Shown piece by piece: positions 1,254-55,408 of a DNA stretch of 64,000 bases. The translations under genes and the position numbers were made by a program. The stretch covers positions 1 through 64,000 of the forward strand of contig JAKLKC010000019.1 of the NCBI GenBank assembly GCA_023150875.1, given 5' to 3'. Position 1 is the first letter of the stretch; each line of letters starts with the position of its first letter. This DNA comes from Myxococcota bacterium (GTDB lineage Bacteria; Myxococcota_A; UBA796; UBA9615; JAKLKC01). Below the pieces are notes generated by a model. The model was not told the origin of the DNA. It did no database searches and saw nothing but the letters and a program-made list of their open reading frames with translations.

Positions 1254-2524
1254 AGATCGCCCTGGTGTACGACGCCGTCTACCCCTGGGTGCGCGGCGGG
1301 GGCGAGGTCAACGTCCGGGGCCTCGCCGAGCGCCTCGCCGCCCGGGGTCACGCCGTCGACGTGGTGGGGATGAAGTGGTGGGAGGGCCCGCCTGAGCGCG
1401 AGGAGGACGGGTTTGGCGAAGCCAAACGCCCAGGGCCCGCCGCCTGCGGCGGAATAGGGTGCGGGACGCACCCGAAAGGGCCCTGGGCCGGACCCGAGGG
1501 CAGGGCCCAGGATGGCCCTGACCGCGGGTTCCGCCTGGTGGGGGCGTGTCCCTCCTCCCCCCTCTACCGCGAGGACGGCCGGCGGCGCTTCGAGCCCCCC
1601 CTGCTCTTCGCCGCCGGGGTGGCGCGCCACTTCATCCGGCGGCGCTACGACGTCGTGGACTGCTGCGCCTTCCCCTACATGCCCGCCTTGGGCCTCGTCC
1701 CCCTCCTGCGGGCTCGGCGGATGCCCCTCACCCTGACCTGGTTCGAGGTGTGGGGGAGCTACTGGCGGGAGTACCTGGGCCGGAAGGGGCGTGTCGCCGA
1801 GGGGATCGAGCGCGCCGTCGCCCGAGGCGCCCGCTGGCACCTGGCGATCTCCCCCCTGACCGCGTCGCGCCTGCGGGCTCTCGCCCCCGCCGCCCGTGTC
1901 CGGACCATCCCCTCGGCCTGCGAGGTGTCCACCCCCACCGGTGTTCACCTTGATCCCTATAGGATCGGGTGGTGCGGTCGCGCCCTGCCCTTCAAGGATC
2001 TCCCGGTCCTTCTCGGCGCGCTGGCCCGCCTGCCCCGGGACGAGCCCTGGCACCTGTCGGTGGTGGGGGACGGCCCCTCCCTCCCGGAGTGGAAGGAGAG
2101 GGCGAGGGCGTTGGGGGTCCAGGACCGGGTGGACTGGCTCGGCTTCCTGCCCACCCAGGAGGAGGTCTTCCGGGTCCTCGCCGGCTGCGGAGCGGTGGTC
2201 CAGACCTCCCGGCGGGAGGGGCAGGGCAAGTCCGGGCTGGAGGCGCTGGCCCTGGGGCGACCCCTCGTGTGCGCCGCCCACCCCGAGGTCGCCACCACGG
2301 GCTTCGTCGAGGACGGCGTCTCGGCCCTGCTCTACCCCGCGGGCGACGAGGGCGCGCTGGCCCGGGCCCTGCTCCGCCTGGCGCGGGAGGAGGGGCTCCG
2401 GGAGCGCCTCGCCGCCGGGGCGGCCCGGGTCGCCGCGGGGCTGAGGTGGGAGGCGATCCTCCCCGCCGTGGAAGCCCACTATGACGAGGTGGCGGGGACG
2501 CCGAGGGGTTCGAGACCGAGGTAG
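1250..2524 (+). CDS. GT4-family glycosyltransferase with in-frame palindromic insertion (copy 1)
   Basis: A 424-residue GT-B glycosyltransferase. The start is a TTG overlapping the previous stop (TTGA), giving the expected N-terminus with a Rossmann strand and glycine-rich loop (KIALVYDA, then RGGGEVN). The donor site is EGQGKSGLEALALG near the C-terminus. It is very similar to the gene ending at 7854, but carries about 38 extra residues (roughly 53-91) that the other copy lacks. The extra segment is encoded by a block of nested inverted repeats (1408-1529), is rich in Gly, Pro and Ala, and keeps the frame open. It lies shortly after the first beta-alpha unit, probably in a surface loop. Function could be retained; this is inference. 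Confidence 0.85.
   Translation: MKIALVYDAVYPWVRGGGEVNVRGLAERLAARGHAVDVVGMKWWEGPPEREEDGFGEAKRPGPAACGGIGCGTHPKGPWAGPEGRAQDGPDRGFRLVGACPSSPLYREDGRRRFEPPLLFAAGVARHFIRRRYDVVDCCAFPYMPALGLVPLLRARRMPLTLTWFEVWGSYWREYLGRKGRVAEGIERAVARGARWHLAISPLTASRLRALAPAARVRTIPSACEVSTPTGVHLDPYRIGWCGRALPFKDLPVLLGALARLPRDEPWHLSVVGDGPSLPEWKERARALGVQDRVDWLGFLPTQEEVFRVLAGCGAVVQTSRREGQGKSGLEALALGRPLVCAAHPEVATTGFVEDGVSALLYPAGDEGALARALLRLAREEGLRERLAAGAARVAAGLRWEAILPAVEAHYDEVAGTPRGSRPR
1408..1529. repeat. In-frame multi-hairpin palindromic insertion
   Basis: Compared with the paralogue at 6770-7854, about 120 bp are inserted here. In order: a perfect 7-bp stem with a GAA loop (GTTTGGC/GCCAAAC, 1411-1427); an 11-bp inverted repeat GCCCAGGGCCC (1428-1438) and GGGCCCTGGGC (1478-1488); and, between those arms, two more hairpins, CCGCC/GGCGG (1440-1452) and GGGTGCG/CGCACCC (1457-1473). 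On paper this folds as a multibranch structure. The reading frame is kept. It resembles the idea of Rickettsia palindromic elements (repeats inserted in frame in genes), but I do not claim homology. No second copy was noticed in the window. Confidence 0.75.
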
Positions 2525-2883: not shown

Positions 2884-4329
2884 CTACCGCGACTCCGAGG
2901 GATAGCCGGGTGCGCCGATCGCGATCTCTGGGAGGCCGTCGGCATCCAGATCCGGGATCGCGGCGACCGCATCCCCGCTCATGCCCCACGGGACCCGACC
3001 GTGGATGGAGACGAGCACCGCGTCCGGATCGGTCTCATCGACGCTGCGGCCTTGAAGGAGCGCCGCACCAGAGACCACCCAGGTCCGACCTGCGTAGTCG
3101 TCCGGGCACGGGCTCCCGATGAGCACATCGGCCTTCCCGTCATCGTCCATGTCTGCGAGGGCCGACATCGGGAAGTCCCCCCAGACCGTGGATGGCCCAC
3201 ACTCCACGACGAAGGTCCCCGATGCCGACGCGACCCCGAAACGGCTCCCGGAGCACTCAGCGGGAGAGAGGAAGAGGGAGACTTGGGCAGGCCCCGTCAT
3301 GCCATACTCCCCAGAGTGATAGGCCATCAGGACATCGCCGCGACCATCCCCGTCCACGTCCCCTGCCGACGCGAACCATCGCATGTTCCTCACGACATCG
3401 TCGCCGCCGAGAGTGAAACAGGGCTCCTCCGTTCCGAATGTACCACCAGATGCCAGCCGAGCACCCGAGAAGGCGCGCGCCGACATAACGTCATCCTCGC
3501 CGCCGTCGTAACCCAAGGTGTCCCTGTGGGGTAGGAGCACGTCGGCGCGGCCATCCCCATCCACGTCCCCGATCGGTACGGGTCTCTCGGTGCCCGACCC
3601 CACATCCCCGACCACGGTCGCAATGGCGAGATCGGCGATCTCGTAGCGGCCTCCCTCGCCAAGGTCACTCCCCGACAACAAGTACGCGACGCCGCCGCGC
3701 CCCATGACTGTGTCGCCGACTCCGTCGCCGGTCGCGTCTCCCACCGGCACAGCGAACTCGACCGCCCCCTCCCCGTCGTATAGCACGACGTCTGCGATCG
3801 ACATGTCGAACTCCACCTGGGACGTGACCGACGCAGCGAAGACGATGCACCCCGAATCCTGATTTCCTCCGGGGTCGCAAGGACCCGCGTAGAGCAAGTC
3901 GCCCAGAGCGTCTCCGTCCAGATCACCCGCCCCTTGCACGTGGAGGCGCTCCGGGCCGACACCGCCACCGTCCTTCAGTCTCATCGTCGCGTACGAGAGT
4001 CCGAGCGACACGTCGGACGGGTCCAGAAGCGTGTCTCCCGAGACAATGTACGCACGACCGGATCCTGGGGCACCGACCAAGAGTCCCGCCATCCCATCGC
4101 CGGTCTGGTCGCCGGATGAACCAAGATAGCGCCCACTCGCTTCCTTCTGGAACACACCCGTCCTCCTCACATCACCCATTTCCACTTCGAGGGTCGAGAC
4201 GCCATCGAGGGTACTGGAGAGGAACACGAAGGCGGCGCCGTACTCGAACTGCCACGTCGATCTCTCCGGCGTGCAACCGGCCGCCAGGGCCAGGAGAAAT
4301 GTCGTCGTGGAAGTGCGAAGTGGGGACAT
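2884..4329 (-). CDS. FG-GAP repeat lipoprotein (third gene of cassette A)
   Basis: About 481 residues from the ATG at 4329. That start gives a compact lipoprotein signal (MSPLRTSTTT, hydrophobic core, lipobox LAAGC); ATG 4368 is an in-frame alternative. The mature protein has repeated FG-GAP/integrin-like calcium loops of the type GDVDGDGRADVL, DMDDDGKADVLIG and DLDADGLPEIAIG, spaced as in a seven-bladed propeller. It is probably anchored at the outer membrane and exposed. It lies last in a minus-strand run after the frameshifted metalloprotease and the exported partner. In the paralogous cassette B this position is held by an unrelated lipoprotein. GC content is visibly lower than in the flanking glycosyltransferases. 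Confidence 0.85.
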   Translation of the reverse strand: MSPLRTSTTTFLLALAAGCTPERSTWQFEYGAAFVFLSSTLDGVSTLEVEMGDVRRTGVFQKEASGRYLGSSGDQTGDGMAGLLVGAPGSGRAYIVSGDTLLDPSDVSLGLSYATMRLKDGGGVGPERLHVQGAGDLDGDALGDLLYAGPCDPGGNQDSGCIVFAASVTSQVEFDMSIADVVLYDGEGAVEFAVPVGDATGDGVGDTVMGRGGVAYLLSGSDLGEGGRYEIADLAIATVVGDVGSGTERPVPIGDVDGDGRADVLLPHRDTLGYDGGEDDVMSARAFSGARLASGGTFGTEEPCFTLGGDDVVRNMRWFASAGDVDGDGRGDVLMAYHSGEYGMTGPAQVSLFLSPAECSGSRFGVASASGTFVVECGPSTVWGDFPMSALADMDDDGKADVLIGSPCPDDYAGRTWVVSGAALLQGRSVDETDPDAVLVSIHGRVPWGMSGDAVAAIPDLDADGLPEIAIGAPGYPSESR

Positions 4330-4390
4330 CGGGGCGCGGCGCGCCCGCAGCGTGGTGGGTTCCCTCATGGCCGACTCGCTACTCATGTCG

Positions 4391-5176
4391 CTACCAGGCC
4401 CAGAAGCCGGTGCTGACGCCATGCTGCTCTGCGTGACCGGCGAAGAACGGAAACTCGAACGTCGGGTCCAGGACCAGGGAGGCGGCTGCCATGATCCGAT
4501 CCGACGGATAGCATGGCCCTAGGTGGGCGGGAGGCGGCGGGATTTCCCACGGCAGGTGGGGAAAAGGCGTCGGCGCGTCCGTGGGGCACCAGTGGTGCGG
4601 ATCGGCGAGATCCCAGATCTCAACGAGGGAGTCGAAGTCCAGAGTAGCTGGGATCTCCCCCCAGAAGAACCGGAGCCAATCATACTCCGTCCCCCGAACG
4701 TACGTGCTTCCGTCGCACCAGTCCTGCAAGTAGTTCTTTTCGTCTACCGACGGCGCGTCCGCATCAGGCGATCCGGTACATGAGAATTGTGGGCCGTCCG
4801 ACGGGGGGCCGCTCCGGTCCCAGTCGACGGAGTAGCTCCGTTCCATTCGGCAGTCCGACTCACCCTCGTTGTTGAACGTGATCGCTGCGTACAGATGGGC
4901 GAATCCTTCCGATGCAGCGGCGCTCTGAAACTCCTTGCTGATGATGAAGTGACTCCCCGGGCCCGCGTCCGCGCAGATGCCGGGGTCGGCCTCGTAGAAG
5001 ATCGCAAACGGCAAGCGCTGGTCGGCCTTCACGGAGAGGGCGTGGCCCATTTCGTGGACAATCGTCCACTTGTAGTCGGCCGTGGCCGGCGAGATGTAGA
5101 CCGTGTCTAGCAGCGCGCATGCATTACCGAAGCACTCGTCAGCGGTGAGCACGAATGAGTACTCCTCATTCGCCAA
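4391..5176 (-). CDS. Secreted HExxH metalloprotease, C-terminal half (frameshifted)
   Basis: Carries the zinc motif HEMGH (residues 41-45 of this fragment) and a downstream EGFAH (Glu90) fitting the third ligand of gluzincins, plus a conserved GTEYDWLRFFW segment shared with the intact paralogue at 53344-54672. Alignment by eye places this as the C-terminal two thirds of that protein. Its N-terminal part continues upstream in another frame (5166-5729). The frame is lost near a CCC run (GGG on the plus strand, 5188-5190), consistent with one surplus base. The TTG at 5176 is only the first possible start in this frame, not a natural gene start. It may be a pseudogene, a sequencing error or a recoding site. 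Confidence 0.75.
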   Translation of the reverse strand: MANEEYSFVLTADECFGNACALLDTVYISPATADYKWTIVHEMGHALSVKADQRLPFAIFYEADPGICADAGPGSHFIISKEFQSAAASEGFAHLYAAITFNNEGESDCRMERSYSVDWDRSGPPSDGPQFSCTGSPDADAPSVDEKNYLQDWCDGSTYVRGTEYDWLRFFWGEIPATLDFDSLVEIWDLADPHHWCPTDAPTPFPHLPWEIPPPPAHLGPCYPSDRIMAAASLVLDPTFEFPFFAGHAEQHGVSTGFWAW

Positions 5177-5729
5177 GCCGCCGTCGTGGGAAGAGGGCCC
5201 ACTCTGAGGCCGCCATGATGTTGCTGTGGGGGGTCAAGTATCCGGTAGCCGGGATCGTCACGGGCTCAGCAGCCCAAGTCTGGTCAACGGTCTCGTCCAA
5301 ACTTGTAGCAAACCAGAAGACCTCCAGCGCGTCATTGGTGAGTCGGATCGAGTTACTACCGATCTTCGCCCGCGTGTAAGTGTGCACGCTAACGAGGTGT
5401 CCCTCCTTGATCGAAAGGAGAGGCGTACAGCCCACATGCGACCCGTCTTCGTACGCGAAGTCGGACCAGACTTCGTTGAACCCGGGCTCTGTTGGCGTTC
5501 CGACATCGATTACCCTACCCTTGACTCCGCGTGCCGGAACGTCCATGATGGAATCTAAGAAGTAGTCGTCACCCAGTGGGGGCAGACCATCGACGGGGTC
5601 ATAGGCGTCTGTGAAGCTGGTCACATGCACGAAGCAGAAACGAACAGGCACATCAGCCGCCCATCCGAATGCGGGCGAGGCAACGAATGCGGTTGACAGT
5701 GCGATTGCATTGCGGCGGACATGTACCAT
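5166..5729 (-). CDS. Secreted HExxH metalloprotease, N-terminal half (frameshifted)
   Basis: Starts at ATG 5729, which gives a signal peptide (MVHVRRNAIALS, then a core ending FGWAAD). The segment GCTPLLSIKEGHLVSVHTYT matches GCTPLLSFDDDETYLISIWS of the intact paralogue in cassette B, and NIMAASEWAL matches NILGAAIWAL, so this is the prodomain or N-terminal domain of the same protease. After EWALF the frame runs to a stop at 5166, while the other frame continues with the catalytic part. As read here no full-length protease is made. Upstream, 81 bases away, is the exported partner gene in the same direction. Confidence 0.75.
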   Translation of the reverse strand: MVHVRRNAIALSTAFVASPAFGWAADVPVRFCFVHVTSFTDAYDPVDGLPPLGDDYFLDSIMDVPARGVKGRVIDVGTPTEPGFNEVWSDFAYEDGSHVGCTPLLSIKEGHLVSVHTYTRAKIGSNSIRLTNDALEVFWFATSLDETVDQTWAAEPVTIPATGYLTPHSNIMAASEWALFPRRRLGE

Positions 5730-5810
5730 CGAATCGGTCCCTTCTCCAGGCGGGCAGCACCGTGAGTCCCCCTCGTCCTCGTGCGCGAGCCTCACGGTGT
5801 CGTAGTGTCG

Positions 5811-6548
5811 TCAGGGGCCCAAGGCGATCTCCTGCATCCGGACAAGAGCAACGGGTTCGTCGTGAAGCATTGTCCGTGGGTCGTATCCCACTCTCTCGAA
5901 TACGAGATCGACGTTGCCAGGCTGGATGCCCGCGACCATCGTGAGTTCGGCCTCCTCAGCGTCCATGAGAGTCGGATCGCCAGTTCGCTCATCGAAAATG
6001 ACATGGACTACGGGTGCTTGAACCCGCGCGACGGTTACGCCCGTCGTGACATCAGTGGCCACGACCTTCACTCGAAGGTCGCTGATCACCTCCACTTGCC
6101 TCGAATCGAACTCGACGACATGGTCGGACATCAAGATGTTCAGTTCGGCCGCATGTCCGTCCGCAGTGGTGCTGGGACCGTCGATCCATTCGACACCCAG
6201 GCCGTTGAATGTGAGCCGGCTGATCGTCCAATACTCGACGTCGTAGTATACGGACGAACCGACTTCAAGGGTCGGCTGCACTTGCCCAGCCCCATCCCTG
6301 ACCCAGTCGACGGATATCCAGCTCGGGTCGAACGCCTCCATGACGCACACTGGTGCGACCTCCTGTACATCACCTTCGCGCCCGTCGTGTTCTGCGGGCG
6401 CCACGTCTTCGTGTGCGGACCCGACATGCACGTTGGCGACCACCGGTAGAACGACGATTCCCACAGCCAATCCCCGCTTCAAGCGCCACAGTATCGAGAG
6501 GATCTGCGACGTGCGCACTCTGCACTGCACCCCCATGGTGGTTCTCAT
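5811..6548 (-). CDS. Exported protein of unknown family (first gene of cassette A)
   Basis: A 245-residue protein from ATG 6548, chosen because GAGGAG lies 5 bases upstream and the N-terminus then gives a signal or anchor (RLKRGLAVGIVVLPVVANVH). I do not recognise a named domain. It aligns by eye with the first gene of cassette B (54722-55408): EYWTISRLTF against EYWVQRRLVF, WIDGP against WYEGP, PVVHVIFDERTG against PLVHASFDELGT, and a common C-terminal pattern ending in an NVD/NVV segment. Both precede a homologous metalloprotease, so they likely act with it, perhaps as inhibitor, chaperone or substrate-presenting partner. That role is inference from gene order only. Confidence 0.7.
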   Translation of the reverse strand: MRTTMGVQCRVRTSQILSILWRLKRGLAVGIVVLPVVANVHVGSAHEDVAPAEHDGREGDVQEVAPVCVMEAFDPSWISVDWVRDGAGQVQPTLEVGSSVYYDVEYWTISRLTFNGLGVEWIDGPSTTADGHAAELNILMSDHVVEFDSRQVEVISDLRVKVVATDVTTGVTVARVQAPVVHVIFDERTGDPTLMDAEEAELTMVAGIQPGNVDLVFERVGYDPRTMLHDEPVALVRMQEIALGP

Positions 6549-6681: not shown

Positions 6682-7854
6682 ATGACCCGGACACGTCAAC
6701 CCGTGGCCTTGAACATACAGATCGGGGCCGAACCAGTCAAGCCCAGCTCGTCCGTCGGTCGCCCGGTCCGGGGCCTCGCCGAACGCCTCGCCGCCCGCGG
6801 GCACGCCGTCGACGTGGTGGGGATGAAGTGGTGGGAGGGCCCCGCGGTGCGCAGGGAGGACGAATTCCGCCTCGTGGGGGCGTGTCCCTCCTCCCCCCTC
6901 TACCGCGAGGACGGCCGACGGCGCTTCGAGCCCCCCCTCCTCTTCGCCGCCGGGGTGGCGCGCCACTTCGCCCGGCGGCGCTACGACCTCGTGGACTGCT
7001 GCGCTTTCCCCTACCTGCCCGCCCTGGGCCTCATCCCGCTCCTGCGGGCGCGGCGGATCCCCCTCACCCTGACCTGGTTCGAGGTGTGGGGAAGCTACTG
7101 GCGGGAGTACCTGGGCCGGAGGGGGCGTGTCGCGGAGGGGATCGAGCGCGCCGTCGCCCGGGGCGCCCGCTGGCACCTGGCCCACTCCCCCATGACCGCG
7201 TCGCGCCTGCGCGCCATCGCCCCCGCCGCCCGTGTCCGGACCATCCCCTCGGCCTGCGAGGTGTCCACCCCCACCGGTGTTCACCTTGATCCCTATAGGA
7301 TCGGGTGGTGCGGTCGCGCCCTGCCCTTCAAGGATCTCCCGGTCCTCCTCGGCGCGCTGGCCCGCCTGCCCCGGGACGAGCCCTGGCGCCTGTCGGTGGT
7401 GGGGGACGGCCCCTCCCTTCCGGAGTGGAAGCAGACGGCCCGGGCGCTGGCGGTCCAGGACCGGGTGGAATGGCTCGGCTTCCTGCCCACCCAGGAGGAG
7501 GTCTTCCGGGTCCTCGCCGGCTGCGGAGCGGTGGTCCAGACGTCCCGGCGGGAGGGGCAGGGCAAGTCAGGACTGGAGGCGCTGGCGCTGGGGCGACCCC
7601 TCGTGTGCGCCTCCCACCCTGACGTCGCCACCACGGGCTTCGTCGAGGACGGCGTCTCGGCCCTCCTCTACCCCGCGGGCGACGAGGGCGCGCTGGCCCG
7701 GGCCCTGCTCCGCCTGGCGCGGGAGGAGGGGCTCCGGGAGCGCCTCGCTGCCGGGGCGGCCCGGGTCGCCGCGGGGCTGAGGTGGGAGGCGATCCTCCCC
7801 GCCGTGGAAGCCCACTACCGCGAGGTGGCGGGGGCGGGCGAGGGGGGAAATTAG
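6682..7854 (+). CDS. GT4-family glycosyltransferase, 5'-truncated duplicate (copy 2)
   Basis: From about 6770 the product follows copy 1 (1250-2524) almost residue for residue, including the C-terminal donor site EGQGKSGLEALALG, without the palindromic insertion. The first 30 residues do not match copy 1: the N-terminal Rossmann strand and the glycine-rich loop (KIALVYDA, GGGEVN) are missing and replaced by unrelated sequence from cassette A. Since that loop is important in GT-B enzymes, this copy is probably inactive or needs another partner. The open frame is intact and differences from copy 1 are scattered, so this is an older duplicate, not an exact assembly repeat. The ATG at 6682 is a guess. 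Confidence 0.65.
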   Translation: MTRTRQPVALNIQIGAEPVKPSSSVGRPVRGLAERLAARGHAVDVVGMKWWEGPAVRREDEFRLVGACPSSPLYREDGRRRFEPPLLFAAGVARHFARRRYDLVDCCAFPYLPALGLIPLLRARRIPLTLTWFEVWGSYWREYLGRRGRVAEGIERAVARGARWHLAHSPMTASRLRAIAPAARVRTIPSACEVSTPTGVHLDPYRIGWCGRALPFKDLPVLLGALARLPRDEPWRLSVVGDGPSLPEWKQTARALAVQDRVEWLGFLPTQEEVFRVLAGCGAVVQTSRREGQGKSGLEALALGRPLVCASHPDVATTGFVEDGVSALLYPAGDEGALARALLRLAREEGLRERLAAGAARVAAGLRWEAILPAVEAHYREVAGAGEGGN

Positions 7855-7888: not shown

Positions 7889-8338
7889 TCACGGAGCCGG
7901 CGCGCCCGGCGGGGCCCCCGAAGCGTCCAGCCACCGCTGCACCCAGCCGCAGAACTCCCTCAGATCGCGGACGTCCTCGGCGAGCCCCCGGTGCAGGAGA
8001 GTGTCGTCCACGTCGAGATAGTCGTGCACGAGCAGGTTGCGCAGCCCGGCCGCCTCCCCCAGGCGCCGTCCCAGCTCGGCGGGCAGGACGGAACGGCCCG
8101 CCAGGAGGCGAAAAACATCCCGATAGGTCTCGGGCATCGGCCAGCCGGCGAGAGCCGCGACGCGCCCCCCCGCGTCGATCGCGGCCTGGACGGCGACCTC
8201 CAGCCATCGCTCCATCGCGGCCAGCGAGGTCGGGTCGTGGGACAGGTCCTCCCAGGGCACGCGCGCCACCTCGTCCAGCCGCCGACAGTATTCCTCGATC
8301 CGGTCGAGGCGCGCATCGATGCGGGCGCGGTCAGCCAC
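7889..8338 (-). CDS. HepT-like HEPN ribonuclease toxin
   Basis: A 149-residue all-helical protein with the HEPN R-x4-H signature RNLLVH followed by DYLDVD, typical of HepT (DUF86). HepT toxins are tRNA or mRNA ribonucleases kept inactive by AMPylation by their MntA partner. The GTG start at 8338 overlaps the partner's stop by eight bases (GTGGCTGA), showing tight coupling. The partner nucleotidyltransferase is directly upstream. The gene converges on the end of the truncated glycosyltransferase. Assignment rests on the motif, size and pairing. Confidence 0.85.
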   Translation of the reverse strand: MADRARIDARLDRIEEYCRRLDEVARVPWEDLSHDPTSLAAMERWLEVAVQAAIDAGGRVAALAGWPMPETYRDVFRLLAGRSVLPAELGRRLGEAAGLRNLLVHDYLDVDDTLLHRGLAEDVRDLREFCGWVQRWLDASGAPPGAPAP

Positions 8339-8783
8339 CGCTGGAGCCCTCCACGGAGTACCGCCGGGATCGGGCACGCATCGCGACGCCCCGGAGGTCC
8401 GCCGCCTCGACGCCCCGGTGCAGGGCCGCCACCTGGAACTCCACGCGATGGGAGGGATCGCGGTCGAAGAGAAGCACGGCGTCGTGCAGCGCCGCGAGCG
8501 CCAGGGAGGGGGGTGCATCCTGAAGCACGATCAGGTCCACCGCCCCGTCCGGGAGCTCGAGCGCGTCCGCCGCCTCGGCCCACAGCCTCAGCCGGCGGCG
8601 CAGCCGGTCCGGCCTCTCCTCCCACCCCCGCGCCCCCAGCACCGCCACGTCGACGTCGCTGCCGGGCCGATGATCGCCCCTCGCCCGGCTCCCGAAGATC
8701 CACGCCGCAGCCACGTCGGGCTGCGCGCGCAGGCAGGCCGTCAGGGCATCCAGGCGCGGCACGTCGGGAATGGGCGCGGGCAT
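8331..8783 (-). CDS. MntA-like nucleotidyltransferase antitoxin
   Basis: A 150-residue minimal nucleotidyltransferase with the signature GSRARG...SDVDVAVL (about residues 31-48), where the two aspartates bind the metal. Known MntA proteins transfer AMP to a tyrosine of the HepT toxin and so neutralise it. It is the first gene of the pair. Upstream is a good sigma70-type promoter (TTGTCC, 17 bp, TATGAT) whose -10 ends six bases before the ATG, so the mRNA may start at or next to the start codon. Confidence 0.85.
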   Translation of the reverse strand: MPAPIPDVPRLDALTACLRAQPDVAAAWIFGSRARGDHRPGSDVDVAVLGARGWEERPDRLRRRLRLWAEAADALELPDGAVDLIVLQDAPPSLALAALHDAVLLFDRDPSHRVEFQVAALHRGVEAADLRGVAMRARSRRYSVEGSSGG

Positions 8784-50507: not shown

Positions 50508-50966
50508 ATGCCGAGTGGAGCGCCCGTGTACCTCGATCGGGCGGTGCTCGCGGAACAGGTCACCGCGGTAGAGCGCCACTTGGACAGGGTGGCGAAGCGG
50601 TTGCCCGCGGACCCGTCGGACCTGGCGCCGTGGACCGACGCGTCCGACGCCGTGGTGCTCCACCTCTGGCAGGCGATCCAGATCGTCATCGACCTCGCCC
50701 TGAACGCCACGGTCCGGATGGGCCTGGGCACTCCAGAGACTTTCGCCGACGCCTTCCGCACCCTCCACCACGCGGGCGTACTCCCCGCCGACCTCGCCGG
50801 CCGCTTGGTGAAGGCCGCCGGGTTCCGCGACCTGATCGTTCACGCCTTCGATGACCTGGACATGGGCGTGGTCTACCGCGCCGCCCGGGCGGGACCCGAA
50901 GACCTCCGCGCGTTCCTCGGGATCCTGGCGGCGGGGTCAACGCCCGCGGGGGACTCCGGCCCCTGA
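50508..50966 (+). CDS. HepT-like HEPN protein without adjacent antitoxin
   Basis: About 152 residues from ATG 50508 (GTG 50526 also possible). The HEPN signature is RDLIVH in AAGFRDLIVHAFDDLD, and the layout matches the HepT at 7889-8338, including VLPADLAGRLVKAAGF against VLPAELGRRLGEAAGL. No MntA-type nucleotidyltransferase is encoded next to it; the preceding 250 bases have no credible gene. Either it pairs with a distant antitoxin, or it is a remnant. Confidence 0.75.
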   Translation: MPSGAPVYLDRAVLAEQVTAVERHLDRVAKRLPADPSDLAPWTDASDAVVLHLWQAIQIVIDLALNATVRMGLGTPETFADAFRTLHHAGVLPADLAGRLVKAAGFRDLIVHAFDDLDMGVVYRAARAGPEDLRAFLGILAAGSTPAGDSGP

Positions 50967-51563: not shown

Positions 51564-51800
51564 CTACAGGGCGTCCTCCGGCGGGGGCTCTCGGTCCGGC
51601 ACGCGCGCGAGCGCCGATTCGAACTCCCCGCGGTCGCCGCGCCGTGCCCGTGCGCCGAGGTACTCCTCGGTCGCCCACGCCGCGAGCTTCTCCCCGGCGG
51701 CGCTGGCGATGAATTGGTTGATCGAGACGCCCTCCCGTCGAGCGGCCTCGCGGATCCCTCGGTGGAGGGACTCGGGCAGGCGGATGCTGATGGTGCTCAT
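51564..51800 (-). CDS. Ribbon-helix-helix antitoxin
   Basis: 78 residues. STISIRLPESLHRGIREAAR and EGVSINQFIASA form a ribbon-helix-helix (CopG/HicB-type) DNA-binding fold. ATG 51800 overlaps the PIN toxin stop by four bases (ATGA). It probably represses the pair by binding the inverted repeat at 52227-52239 in the shared promoter. Confidence 0.85.
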   Translation of the reverse strand: MSTISIRLPESLHRGIREAARREGVSINQFIASAAGEKLAAWATEEYLGARARRGDRGEFESALARVPDREPPPEDAL

Positions 51801-52216
51801 GGTCGTTCTCCGATCTCCTGAAGGTACTCCCTGGGCGTAAGCACCCGGATTCCGAAGCGGTCCGTCCCGACGAAGTCGCGCTTGTTGAAGGTGACGATGA
51901 CCGCGGCGCCCGCGTCCACGGCAAGTTCGAGGACCATGTCGTCTTTCGGATCGGGCAGCGTCGGGCGCCACAGGAAGAACACCGGGCGGTGGATGGCCAC
52001 GGCGCAGAGGTAATCGAGGACGACGCCGAGGTCGCCCGCATCCACCCGGAGCTCGGGCAGCATCCGGTCACACACCCCCTCGTACTCCAGCACCAGCGGC
52101 ACTGAGATCGCGATGTCGAACCGGCCCGTGCCGACCAGCGAGAGCAACCGGAACGACGCCCCTCGACGAGACCACAGCGCGGAGATCAGCGCGTTCGTGT
52201 CGAGGACGATGACCAC
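51797..52216 (-). CDS. PIN-domain toxin
   Basis: 139 residues. PIN fold with Asp ligands in VLDTNALISALW (Asp6), VLEYEGVC, LPDPKDDMVLELA and VTFNKRDF; the order and spacing fit the COG1569 toxin group, predicted metal-dependent RNases. The start is GTG at 52216. A near-consensus promoter ends six bases before it, so the mRNA is probably leaderless. Toxin-first order is opposite to most type II pairs but usual for this group. Confidence 0.85.
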   Translation of the reverse strand: MVIVLDTNALISALWSRRGASFRLLSLVGTGRFDIAISVPLVLEYEGVCDRMLPELRVDAGDLGVVLDYLCAVAIHRPVFFLWRPTLPDPKDDMVLELAVDAGAAVIVTFNKRDFVGTDRFGIRVLTPREYLQEIGERP

Positions 52217-52579: not shown

Positions 52580-53344
52580 TCAGTCGAGACTCTCGGCGGC
52601 GAAGGCGAGGCTGACCAGGTCAAAGGTCTGGCCCCACTCCGTGCACTCCTCGCTGTCTTCGTGGTTCCAGGTCTCCGCTGTGAACAGCACCATCCGGGAG
52701 CCGCCCAGGGATGCCTCCTCGCCCTGGTACAGCGTGGTGCTCTCCCCGGCGACCTGGAAGGTGACGGGGTTGTTGTCGATGGTGTCGACGCAGTACTGTT
52801 CGACCTCCCGGGACGGGCAGTATGATCGGCCCAGCTCGTAGCCCCACCGACCGATCTCCAAACGCGACCAGTCCGTGGCGGTCACGAACAGCAGGAGGGG
52901 CTCCTCTTCGGGCGGGATCCCCCGGTAGACGTATAGGTACTTCCCGTAGGTGCGGTCTTCCGGCGCGCATTCCCCTCCCATGTCGACCATCGTGACCTCG
53001 CCCGCTTGCCCGAGGTCCGGGAGCCATTCCCAGATGTCCTGGTCAACGTCGATAGACGTATAGTCCGCGACTGTCCCATCCGTCGTCGTGAACGTGATGT
53101 GGTCCCGCTCCCAGCGGGTGAAATGACCTGTGTATGGTGTGCCGTACCCCTCGCCAACTGCACAGAGGTATGTCCAGCCGAGGCGCTCGTGACCGCACAC
53201 CCCCTCCGGGGGAGGGCTCGTAGACGCGCAGGCCGCCAGCAGGGTGACGGCCAGCGGGGCCACGAAGCCCCAGCCCCGTCGAAGGGCGCCCCGGAGAACG
53301 CTGGCAGGCCGAGGGCGGCGGAAGGGTAACGCGGTCCGACCCAT
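52580..53344 (-). CDS. Lipoprotein (third gene of cassette B)
   Basis: 254 residues from ATG 53344, which overlaps the metalloprotease stop by one base (TGATG). A basic N-region, hydrophobic core and lipobox LLAAC. The mature part is beta-rich with several Cys (GVCGHE, GGECAPED, SYCPSREVEQYCVD, SEECTEWG) that may form disulfides. No family recognised. It occupies the same position as the FG-GAP lipoprotein in cassette A but is not similar to it. Lower GC than surrounding genes. Confidence 0.75.
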   Translation of the reverse strand: MGRTALPFRRPRPASVLRGALRRGWGFVAPLAVTLLAACASTSPPPEGVCGHERLGWTYLCAVGEGYGTPYTGHFTRWERDHITFTTTDGTVADYTSIDVDQDIWEWLPDLGQAGEVTMVDMGGECAPEDRTYGKYLYVYRGIPPEEEPLLLFVTATDWSRLEIGRWGYELGRSYCPSREVEQYCVDTIDNNPVTFQVAGESTTLYQGEEASLGGSRMVLFTAETWNHEDSEECTEWGQTFDLVSLAFAAESLD

Positions 53345-54672
53345 CAGTCGGTCACTCCGTTCGTGCCGGCCCAAGTCGTCCACTGGGAGTCGAATCCCAG
53401 CACCCCCGCGGCGTCTTGGAGACGGGTTGACGGGTCGTCCCCAGGACTACCATCGTCGTTCGCGTTCCAGTCGTAGGGACCCGCGAATGCCCAGATCGTG
53501 AATACATCATCGACGGAGAGCCCACCGGAGTACGCCATGTCCCACCAGAAACGCAACCAGTCATACTCGGTACCTCGGTTCATGACCACGTTCCCGTTCG
53601 CGTCGAGGCCGGGCCAGCACCTGTTGTGGTAGTAGTCCTCGTCTTCGATCCAGGGCGCCACATGGTGCCCGTTCGCGCAGTCCACCAGGCCCGTCTGCTC
53701 GTCCGCCTGGCGGATCCGGTCGAGGTTCCAGTCCACCCAGCCAACGTAGTATCCGAACCAGCAGTCCTGCTCCACTCGGTTCCACGACGCCGCCGCGTAG
53801 AAGTGGGCCATCCCTTCCGTGGCGGCGGCGCTCTGGTACTCCCGGGTGTTCATCTCGTGGCTGCCGTGGTCCCCCTCGCTGAGCCAGGACGGATGGTCGA
53901 TGATGGAGTCGCCGTCCTGCTCGTCCCAGCGGTCGCTGAAGCAGTTGACCATCCGCGAGTCGTAGTCCTTGGCGGCACTCTTGTATGATGTGGCGAAGTA
54001 CTGCACGAGATGCCCCATCTCGTGGGAGATCACGTACTTGCGGTCCGTTTGAGACGCCTTGATGTACGCCTCGCCGCCGCTGACACAACTACCGGCGCAC
54101 TCCGGGTTTGCCTCATCGTAGAACTTGTACGCCTTCCCCGTCATGCCCGCGTTGTTCCGATGCAGCGCCCAGATCGCCGCCCCCAGGATGTTCCAGTGGC
54201 GCCGCACGACCGTCGTGCCGGTCACGGTCGACAGGTGCGGATAGGCCGTCGGGTCGAAGGCCGTCCACAGGTTCGTGTAGAAGACCTGGTCCAGCGTCGG
54301 GTTGTTGTACACATACACGCTGTTGCCGTTGACGGCCGCGTAGCTCCAGATGCTGATCAGGTACGTCTCGTCGTCGTCGAAGGAGAGCAGAGGTGTGCAG
54401 CCCTCTCTGGAGAAGAGGCCGGGCTCCTCGAGCTTGCCGTTGAACAGCACCCCGGGCGTTTCGTTCGACTCAATCCGCACGTGGACGCCGATAGCAGGAT
54501 ACGGCCCCGGCCAGTCGAGGTAGTCGTCGGAGAGCCACGTCCAGTCCCCGTCCACGAAGTCCAGGTTGAGCTCGAAGCACATCTCCAGGGTTCGGCTCGC
54601 CGCAAGGGAGGGGCGGATCGAAAGAGACACGATGCACGCCGCAGCGAGACACAGAAATACCAGCTTGCGCAT
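53344..54672 (-). CDS. Secreted HExxH metalloprotease (intact, cassette B)
   Basis: 442 residues. Start ATG 54672 is supported by GGAGG six bases upstream and a signal peptide (MRKLVFLCLAAACIVSL to about residue 24). An N-terminal domain of about 180 residues shared with cassette A is followed by HEMGH (217-221), and TEGMAHFY with Glu286 as likely third zinc ligand, i.e. a gluzincin pattern. The C-terminal part has GTEYDWLRFWWD shared with the paralogue and many Cys. No named peptidase family recognised. Probably secreted; substrate unknown. Confidence 0.8.
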   Translation of the reverse strand: MRKLVFLCLAAACIVSLSIRPSLAASRTLEMCFELNLDFVDGDWTWLSDDYLDWPGPYPAIGVHVRIESNETPGVLFNGKLEEPGLFSREGCTPLLSFDDDETYLISIWSYAAVNGNSVYVYNNPTLDQVFYTNLWTAFDPTAYPHLSTVTGTTVVRRHWNILGAAIWALHRNNAGMTGKAYKFYDEANPECAGSCVSGGEAYIKASQTDRKYVISHEMGHLVQYFATSYKSAAKDYDSRMVNCFSDRWDEQDGDSIIDHPSWLSEGDHGSHEMNTREYQSAAATEGMAHFYAAASWNRVEQDCWFGYYVGWVDWNLDRIRQADEQTGLVDCANGHHVAPWIEDEDYYHNRCWPGLDANGNVVMNRGTEYDWLRFWWDMAYSGGLSVDDVFTIWAFAGPYDWNANDDGSPGDDPSTRLQDAAGVLGFDSQWTTWAGTNGVTD

Positions 54673-54721: not shown

Positions 54722-55408
54722 TCAGTATCCGGCCACCCCATCCAGGGATGGTCCGCCATCGTAGACCGCGTCGACCACGTTGACGTCGCCTTCCGATGGC
54801 GTCGCTTCGACGAGCACCGCCGGGAGGGATGGGTCGTCGCGCCACGCCGACGCCAGATCCTCTCCCTGTAGGCCGGTCAAGGTGCCGAGCTCGTCGAACG
54901 ATGCATGGACGAGGGGCAGCCGAAGGCGCAGGACGATCATGTCGGCCTCAACGTCCACCCCGAGTACGGTCGCGATCACGTCGCTGGGCCGGCTGGTCTG
55001 GGCCTCGTGGAGCAACTCGTCCCATGGCGGGACGAACTCCACCCACGCCGTCTCCTCCGGCGCCAGGGTGAACGGCCCCTCGTACCAGCGGTACTCCAGG
55101 TCGAAGAAGACCAAGCGACGCTGAACCCAGTACTCGTAGGTCTTCGTGTCCGCGGCCCGGATCTCGACGAGGGGCATCAGCCGCGACTCCTCGTCCGAGA
55201 CGTAGTCGGCCGTCAGGCCGCCGAGATCGGGTCCTTCCGGCTCGATGTCATCCAGGACCACATCCGCCCTCGCGGCAGGGAGCAGCGCGCTTGCGGAGAG
55301 GAGGAAGGTTAGCTGGAGGATCAACCTCCCAGTGCGGGTGAGGTTCGCGGGCTGGGGGGGGGGTACATCGGCTTGCCGCTTCCATCGCTCCCCTGACCGG
55401 GGAGCCAT
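54722..55408 (-). CDS. Exported protein of unknown family (first gene of cassette B)
   Basis: 228 residues. Hydrophobic signal (RLILQLTFLLSASALLPAARA) preceded by a polar stretch of about 28 residues; translation may begin at the ATG 55408 or further in. Mature part is beta-rich and aligns by eye with the first gene of cassette A (EYW...RL.F, W.EGP, L.HA.FDE). A strong promoter (TTGACG, 18 bp, TATAAG) leaves only a few bases before the ATG. Lies 49 bases upstream of the protease. Confidence 0.7.
   Translation of the reverse strand: MAPRSGERWKRQADVPPPQPANLTRTGRLILQLTFLLSASALLPAARADVVLDDIEPEGPDLGGLTADYVSDEESRLMPLVEIRAADTKTYEYWVQRRLVFFDLEYRWYEGPFTLAPEETAWVEFVPPWDELLHEAQTSRPSDVIATVLGVDVEADMIVLRLRLPLVHASFDELGTLTGLQGEDLASAWRDDPSLPAVLVEATPSEGDVNVVDAVYDGGPSLDGVAGY

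Follow-up and report, generated by a model that had tools for sequence, protein, structure and literature searches.

A run of three genes on the minus strand at positions 2884–6548 of the window (the whole stretch of 64,000 nucleotides of Myxococcota DNA analysed here) encodes an exported partner protein, a metalloprotease and a lipoprotein, in that order. A preliminary description, made from the sequence by eye, had placed and ordered them in this way and had proposed that the first two form a conserved pair with an exchangeable third member. The question that this locus raises is whether the pair belongs together and what the third gene contributes to it. The order and position of the genes were borne out, and they are listed below as cassette A.

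5811–6548, minus strand: gene 1, exported partner of a predicted Ig-like family (Sec signal by eye; profile match)
4391–5795, minus strand: gene 2, probable exported gluzincin metalloprotease with a broken frame (open reading frames; paralogue alignment)
2884–4329, minus strand: gene 3, FG-GAP lipoprotein (PF01839; lipobox)

Genes of cassette A

The protease of cassette A had been described as a single gene. It is present and homologous to the other copies, but a frameshift had been missed: it consists of two open reading frames in different frames, 5166–5795, which carries the N-terminal half, and 4391–5176, which carries the motifs HEMGH, EGFA and DWLRFFW. Both halves align, in order, with an intact paralogue; the break lies near 5166–5200, and the remaining full-length paralogues are open. 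Because the reading frame is broken at this point, this copy may be non-functional or may bear a sequence error.

Gene 3 contains FG-GAP repeats (PF01839, E 1.7e-14, 53.7 bits against a Pfam cut-off of 22.1) and the lipobox LAAGC after a hydrophobic stretch; here, as throughout, inspection by eye or a regular expression served to recognise signal peptides and lipoboxes, in this case both. Its reading frame can be extended to 4422, and translation probably starts at 4329 (signal peptide MSPLRTSTTTFLLALAAGC), the start that the lipobox favours. Just past the 3' end of the cassette, at 2814–2867 of the window, there is a tandem repeat with a unit of 27 bases (96% identity).

Cassette B and paralogues in the same genome

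A second set of three genes lies in the same window.

54722–55408, minus strand: cassette B gene 1, exported partner (homology to 5811–6548; 70% identical copy at locus C92)
53344–54672, minus strand: cassette B gene 2, intact metalloprotease with predicted transthyretin-like N-terminal and thermolysin-like catalytic domains (structure model)
52580–53344, minus strand: cassette B gene 3, lipoprotein (three-paralogue alignment; no Pfam match)

The homology of the first two genes of the two cassettes, previously judged by eye, is confirmed by alignment: the partners are 30% identical over 111 amino acids (E 7.8e-12), and the protease of cassette B matches the C-terminal half of that of cassette A with 30% identity over 238 amino acids (E 1.4e-22) and its N-terminal half with an E-value of 1.4e-9. 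The third genes are unrelated to each other, FG-GAP in A and a different lipoprotein in B; that they differ had been noticed. The source genome (6.9 Mb, 180 contigs, 98% complete) holds the protease at five loci, namely A, B, C92, C147 (two copies) and C102, and at all five a partner lies directly upstream according to the partner profile. Most of the paralogous copies are 22–40% identical, and the only close pair is B and C92, whose partners are 70–71% and whose proteases 60–61% identical. The earlier statement that the unit is duplicated elsewhere thus holds for the existence of homologous copies, but these are spread over five loci and, as judged from their sequences, cassettes A and B are old paralogues.

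The lipoprotein of cassette B occupies the third position at B, C92 and C147. Among the loci fetched its family is confined to these three, no third gene of this type having been found in those from outside the source genome, and no Pfam family scored above the cut-off. The second of the tandem proteases at C147 (L010, 10242–11378), which reaches the end of its contig, has SRQLG in place of HExxH and is possibly an inactive copy.

The protease

Residues H217, E218, G220 and H221 of the HExxH motif are near-invariant across 30 aligned proteases, and so is E286-G-x-A289, an ExxA pattern whose glutamate would be the third zinc ligand. HExGH, the EGxA motif, EYQS and DWLRFxW are the conserved elements of the alignment. 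Because HExxH is combined with ExxA, the protein is most likely a gluzincin, with putative zinc endopeptidase activity. Against Pfam and NCBIfam it gave sub-threshold matches only, and its profile found no meaningful match among the sequences of solved structures.

The model of the cassette B protease (pLDDT 84.8, pTM 0.87) was compared with known structures by Foldseek. Thermolysin was matched with an E-value of 1.8e-4 and a probability of 1.00, and the top 11 matches were thermolysin, vibriolysin and related M4 enzymes (probabilities 0.94–1.00), with TM-scores of 0.33–0.51 that indicate a similar, not the same, fold. Transthyretin was a weak structural match for the N-terminal beta domain. 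The resemblance to M4 enzymes rests on this single-protease model, since thermolysin was absent among the best 50 matches listed for the model of a fused partner-protease protein.

Likeness to the thermolysin family (MEROPS M4; thermolysin, vibriolysin, LasB) lies in the predicted catalytic fold, the HExxH motif and the predicted export. Unlike M4 enzymes, none of the 30 members matched an M4 Pfam model, a Pfam search turned up neither an FTP nor a PepSY propeptide, and the NExxSD-type third-ligand motif is absent from the alignment, with EGxAH/N/D in its place; there are, moreover, an additional putative transthyretin-like N-terminal domain and an apparently dedicated, Ig-like partner.

The partner and its link to the protease

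No Pfam family above the cut-off was found for the partner. In a fused relative, the partner portion (residues 68–197) models as a beta-sandwich followed by a disordered linker, and this sandwich matches Asf1, a TRAP subunit, PapD and Fn3 domains in Foldseek, with low TM-scores. In the same model (pTM 0.64 overall) the pLDDT of the linker is about 27–31, so that no interface between the partner and protease parts can be read from it. The partners of the window are tied to the modelled relative by a weak match between the near and the far profile of the partner (55% hhalign probability, E 1.2e-4), and their Ig/Fn3-like beta-sandwich is a correspondingly tentative prediction. At many loci outside the class of the window the partner itself bears a lipobox.

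A profile built from the five loci of the source genome recovered eight more partners from other genomes, each encoded immediately ahead of a protease. At 29 loci a separate partner gene was listed just upstream of the protease gene, most of these pairs overlapping by 1–4 bases, and in 14 proteins the two are fused in a single chain with the partner N-terminal to the protease (11 from a scan of the phylum, and L024, L058 and L063). The protease was detected in 9/71 genomes of the window's class and in 30/379 sampled Myxococcota genomes, as well as on contigs labelled Acidobacteriota (Holophagales), Planctomycetota, Gammaproteobacteria and Desulfobulbaceae; in the tree, the sequences from the same phylum group with Nannocystis. 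Within the class, partner matches occur in six of the nine protease-bearing genomes and in none of the 62 protease-free ones. Partner and protease distances are correlated (r 0.85, reached in 0/2000 permutations), which, as read from the sequences, shows joint inheritance of the kind expected of linked genes. A partner accompanies the protease almost without exception; near the proteases L017 and L057 none was found.

The fused proteins strengthen the suggestion of a dedicated partner, and so does the lack of any partner match in the 62 protease-free genomes of the class. The co-occurrence check likewise upheld the proposal that a conserved pair is combined with a variable third gene: other genomes contain the pair as well, with third genes that differ by lineage.

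Two loci deserve separate mention. At L142 (5376–6314, genome G014) a partner-like sequence is in frame with an FG-GAP-like sequence, with no protease between them, possibly a cassette remnant or a partner-lipoprotein fusion. A full cassette lies on a contig titled Actinomycetota (L012, DMNR01000073.1) and groups with Myxococcota sequences; its label or binning may be wrong.

The third gene

The FG-GAP lipoprotein found in cassette A is a real variant, but not, as had been supposed, one of two equal variants: in the class of the window it is what usually occupies the third position. The ten Pfam-checked loci, cassette A and nine others, share FG-GAP repeats with the FG-GAP or MopE-motif lipoproteins of Myxococcota, and several of their third genes carry the MopE motif; the cassette proteins differ from these lipoproteins in sitting directly behind the protease pair. 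In other families of the phylum the third gene has an FGE domain (PF03781; eight loci checked, most with a lipobox). LRR-like lipoproteins are third at two loci, L113 (sub-threshold in Pfam) and L019 (by eye), genome G025 has another uncatalogued type twice, and the lipoprotein of cassette B constitutes a fifth type. Many far loci are without a lipoprotein third gene.

Both common types have a considerable genomic background. FG-GAP repeat matches number 45–104 in three genomes and at least 150 in two, including G000; genome G062, with at most 45, nevertheless has an FG-GAP third gene at both its loci. There are 16–40 FGE genes per genome, and in five such genomes FGE genes follow about 10/12 proteases, among them each of the four proteases of G279, so that FGE third genes behind proteases are above background. 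A cassette-specific FG-GAP subfamily was considered and rejected, as the best match of the cassette A lipoprotein is a control FG-GAP protein, to which it is at least as close as to other cassette FG-GAP proteins.

In the class of the window, lipoboxes occur on the third protein; elsewhere, the partner or the fusion often has one. From this distribution a membrane anchor appears to be supplied one way or another at many loci, as a trend and not a rule.

Proposed function and alternatives

The reading preferred here, held with slightly more confidence than doubt, is that the cassette encodes an exported protease of the gluzincin type together with an Ig-like scaffold of its own, and that an exchangeable lipoprotein tethers or targets this protease. 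The pair, the gene order, the fusions and the variable third gene are observed, the folds and the export are predicted, and catalysis, complex formation, anchoring and aiming are inferred from fold, motifs and lipobox distribution. Gene 2 would encode an exported gluzincin zinc endopeptidase with a transthyretin-like N-terminal domain followed by a thermolysin-like catalytic domain. Gene 1 would encode a dedicated exported Ig/Fn3-like protein that forms one working unit with the protease, most likely by serving as a scaffold or tether for it; in certain lineages the two are a single chain, often lipobox-bearing, with a flexible linker between them. The lipoprotein of gene 3 would anchor the unit at the cell surface, aim it by means of an exchangeable fold (FG-GAP propeller, FGE/C-type-lectin fold, LRR and others), or both; an anchoring or targeting role is favoured because of the coupled lipoprotein genes and the lipidated fusions. 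A broader proposal, put forward tentatively and with doubt prevailing, is that this is an undescribed modular surface-protease system of Myxococcota, with a conserved core of protease and Ig-like scaffold whose aim is changed by swapping the terminal lipoprotein among these unrelated binding folds, and with several differently aimed copies per genome.

Gene 1 could instead be a folding helper or inhibitor that replaces the thermolysin-type propeptide, required while the protease matures and afterwards set free or cleaved off. The lack of an FTP or PepSY propeptide by Pfam, the propeptide-like position of the fused partner ahead of a linker of very low pLDDT, and the presence of the Ig-like chaperone PapD among the structural matches agree with this; however, a lipobox on the partner at many loci is more in keeping with a permanent tether than with a chaperone that is discarded, and neither an interface nor a cleavage site is in evidence, which leaves the helper role rather improbable. 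As for gene 3, its product might be what the protease acts on, a surface lipoprotein that is released or processed, given that the gene is tightly coupled to the protease at many loci and that all third-gene products are of a surface type and have unrelated folds. Those folds have no evident common site, though, several far loci and fusions are without a third gene, and fused or lipidated partners already provide an anchor; a substrate is thus an unlikely interpretation. Still less probable is that gene 3 is a neighbour by chance or at the level of a regulon. The abundance of such lipoproteins speaks for it (FG-GAP repeats are common, as in G000), as does the failure of the cassette A lipoprotein to fall closer to its cassette counterparts than to the control, but the genes are on the same strand and mostly overlapping at many loci, and neither the frequency of FGE genes behind proteases nor the two FG-GAP third genes of G062 is what abundance would predict.

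Whatever the intact cassettes do, cassette A may be in decay and its protease no longer produced, and the evidence for and against is about evenly balanced. The frame break, the low GC3 described below and the occurrence in the same genome of a protease-like copy without HExxH (the second at C147) are consistent with decay. Genes 1 and 3 are nevertheless open, the catalytic motifs are all preserved beyond the break, and the break itself may have arisen recently or may reflect a sequence error or recoding.

Relation to known systems

The FP0506 elastase of Flavobacterium psychrophilum is a surface protease outside the named families that was assigned to the gluzincins by HExxH plus ExxA, features that it shares with the cassette protease (PMC6414381). 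In the account drawn on here it is a predicted lipoprotein of 296 amino acids, closest by profile to PF04228 and M48, and restricted to Flavobacteriaceae; it differs in that neither a partner gene nor an exchangeable third gene is reported there (PMC6414381). The FGE-sulfatase domain has a C-type lectin fold and serves as a ligand-binding module, for example in diversity-generating systems, with whose proteins the FGE third genes share PF03781 (PMC7159879). The cassette FGE genes, in contrast, are linked to an exported protease, while a reverse transcriptase and an NTPase belong to the known systems. A literature search found no published description of the cassette, which appears to be an undescribed arrangement of parts of known kinds.

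Surface proteolysis in predatory, social bacteria is poorly understood. The protease passes no Pfam or NCBIfam model and the partner no Pfam model, yet both recur across Myxococcota, often in several copies per genome, and the pair is also found in a few metagenome-assembled genomes of other phyla. If it is true that the third gene aims the protease, this would be a natural form of re-targeting by exchange of a separate binding subunit. The existence of fused and split forms makes the link between partner and protease directly testable.

Base composition and surroundings

The preliminary description had noted a lower GC content in both cassettes and had seen in it a hint of transfer. The first point is correct: the mean GC3 of the window is 0.939 (sd 0.040), and the values are 0.68–0.80 in cassette A, 0.84–0.87 in cassette B and 0.76 at C102. 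GC3 is somewhat low at all five loci, A and C102 lying far under the window mean and B and the others less so. The second is not supported, because the proteases, despite their low GC3, fall inside the clade of their own class. All copies do so in the tree (96/94), where the protease of cassette A groups with C102 (99/94) and that of B with C92 and C147 (85/93); a plasmid search for the cassette gave no match. On these grounds, and with GC3 on the low side at all five loci, a recent import of the cassettes was rejected, and exchange of cassettes within the class is possible.

Cassette A is flanked on both sides by copies of one gene.

1313–2508, plus strand: glycosyltransferase on one side of cassette A (flanking repeat)
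6766–7845, plus strand: second glycosyltransferase copy on the other side, with a different N-terminal start

The first copy is 95% identical to 6865–7845 over 981 columns and 91% identical to 6766–6862 over 97 bases. These two nearly identical flanking copies point to a local duplication or insertion event at cassette A. Near both cassettes there are also, by eye, apparent toxin-antitoxin genes of nucleotidyltransferase/HEPN and PIN types (7889–8783, 50526–50966 and 51564–52216), and similar ones, again by eye, lie near the cassette of a relative (L061, 4004–4647).
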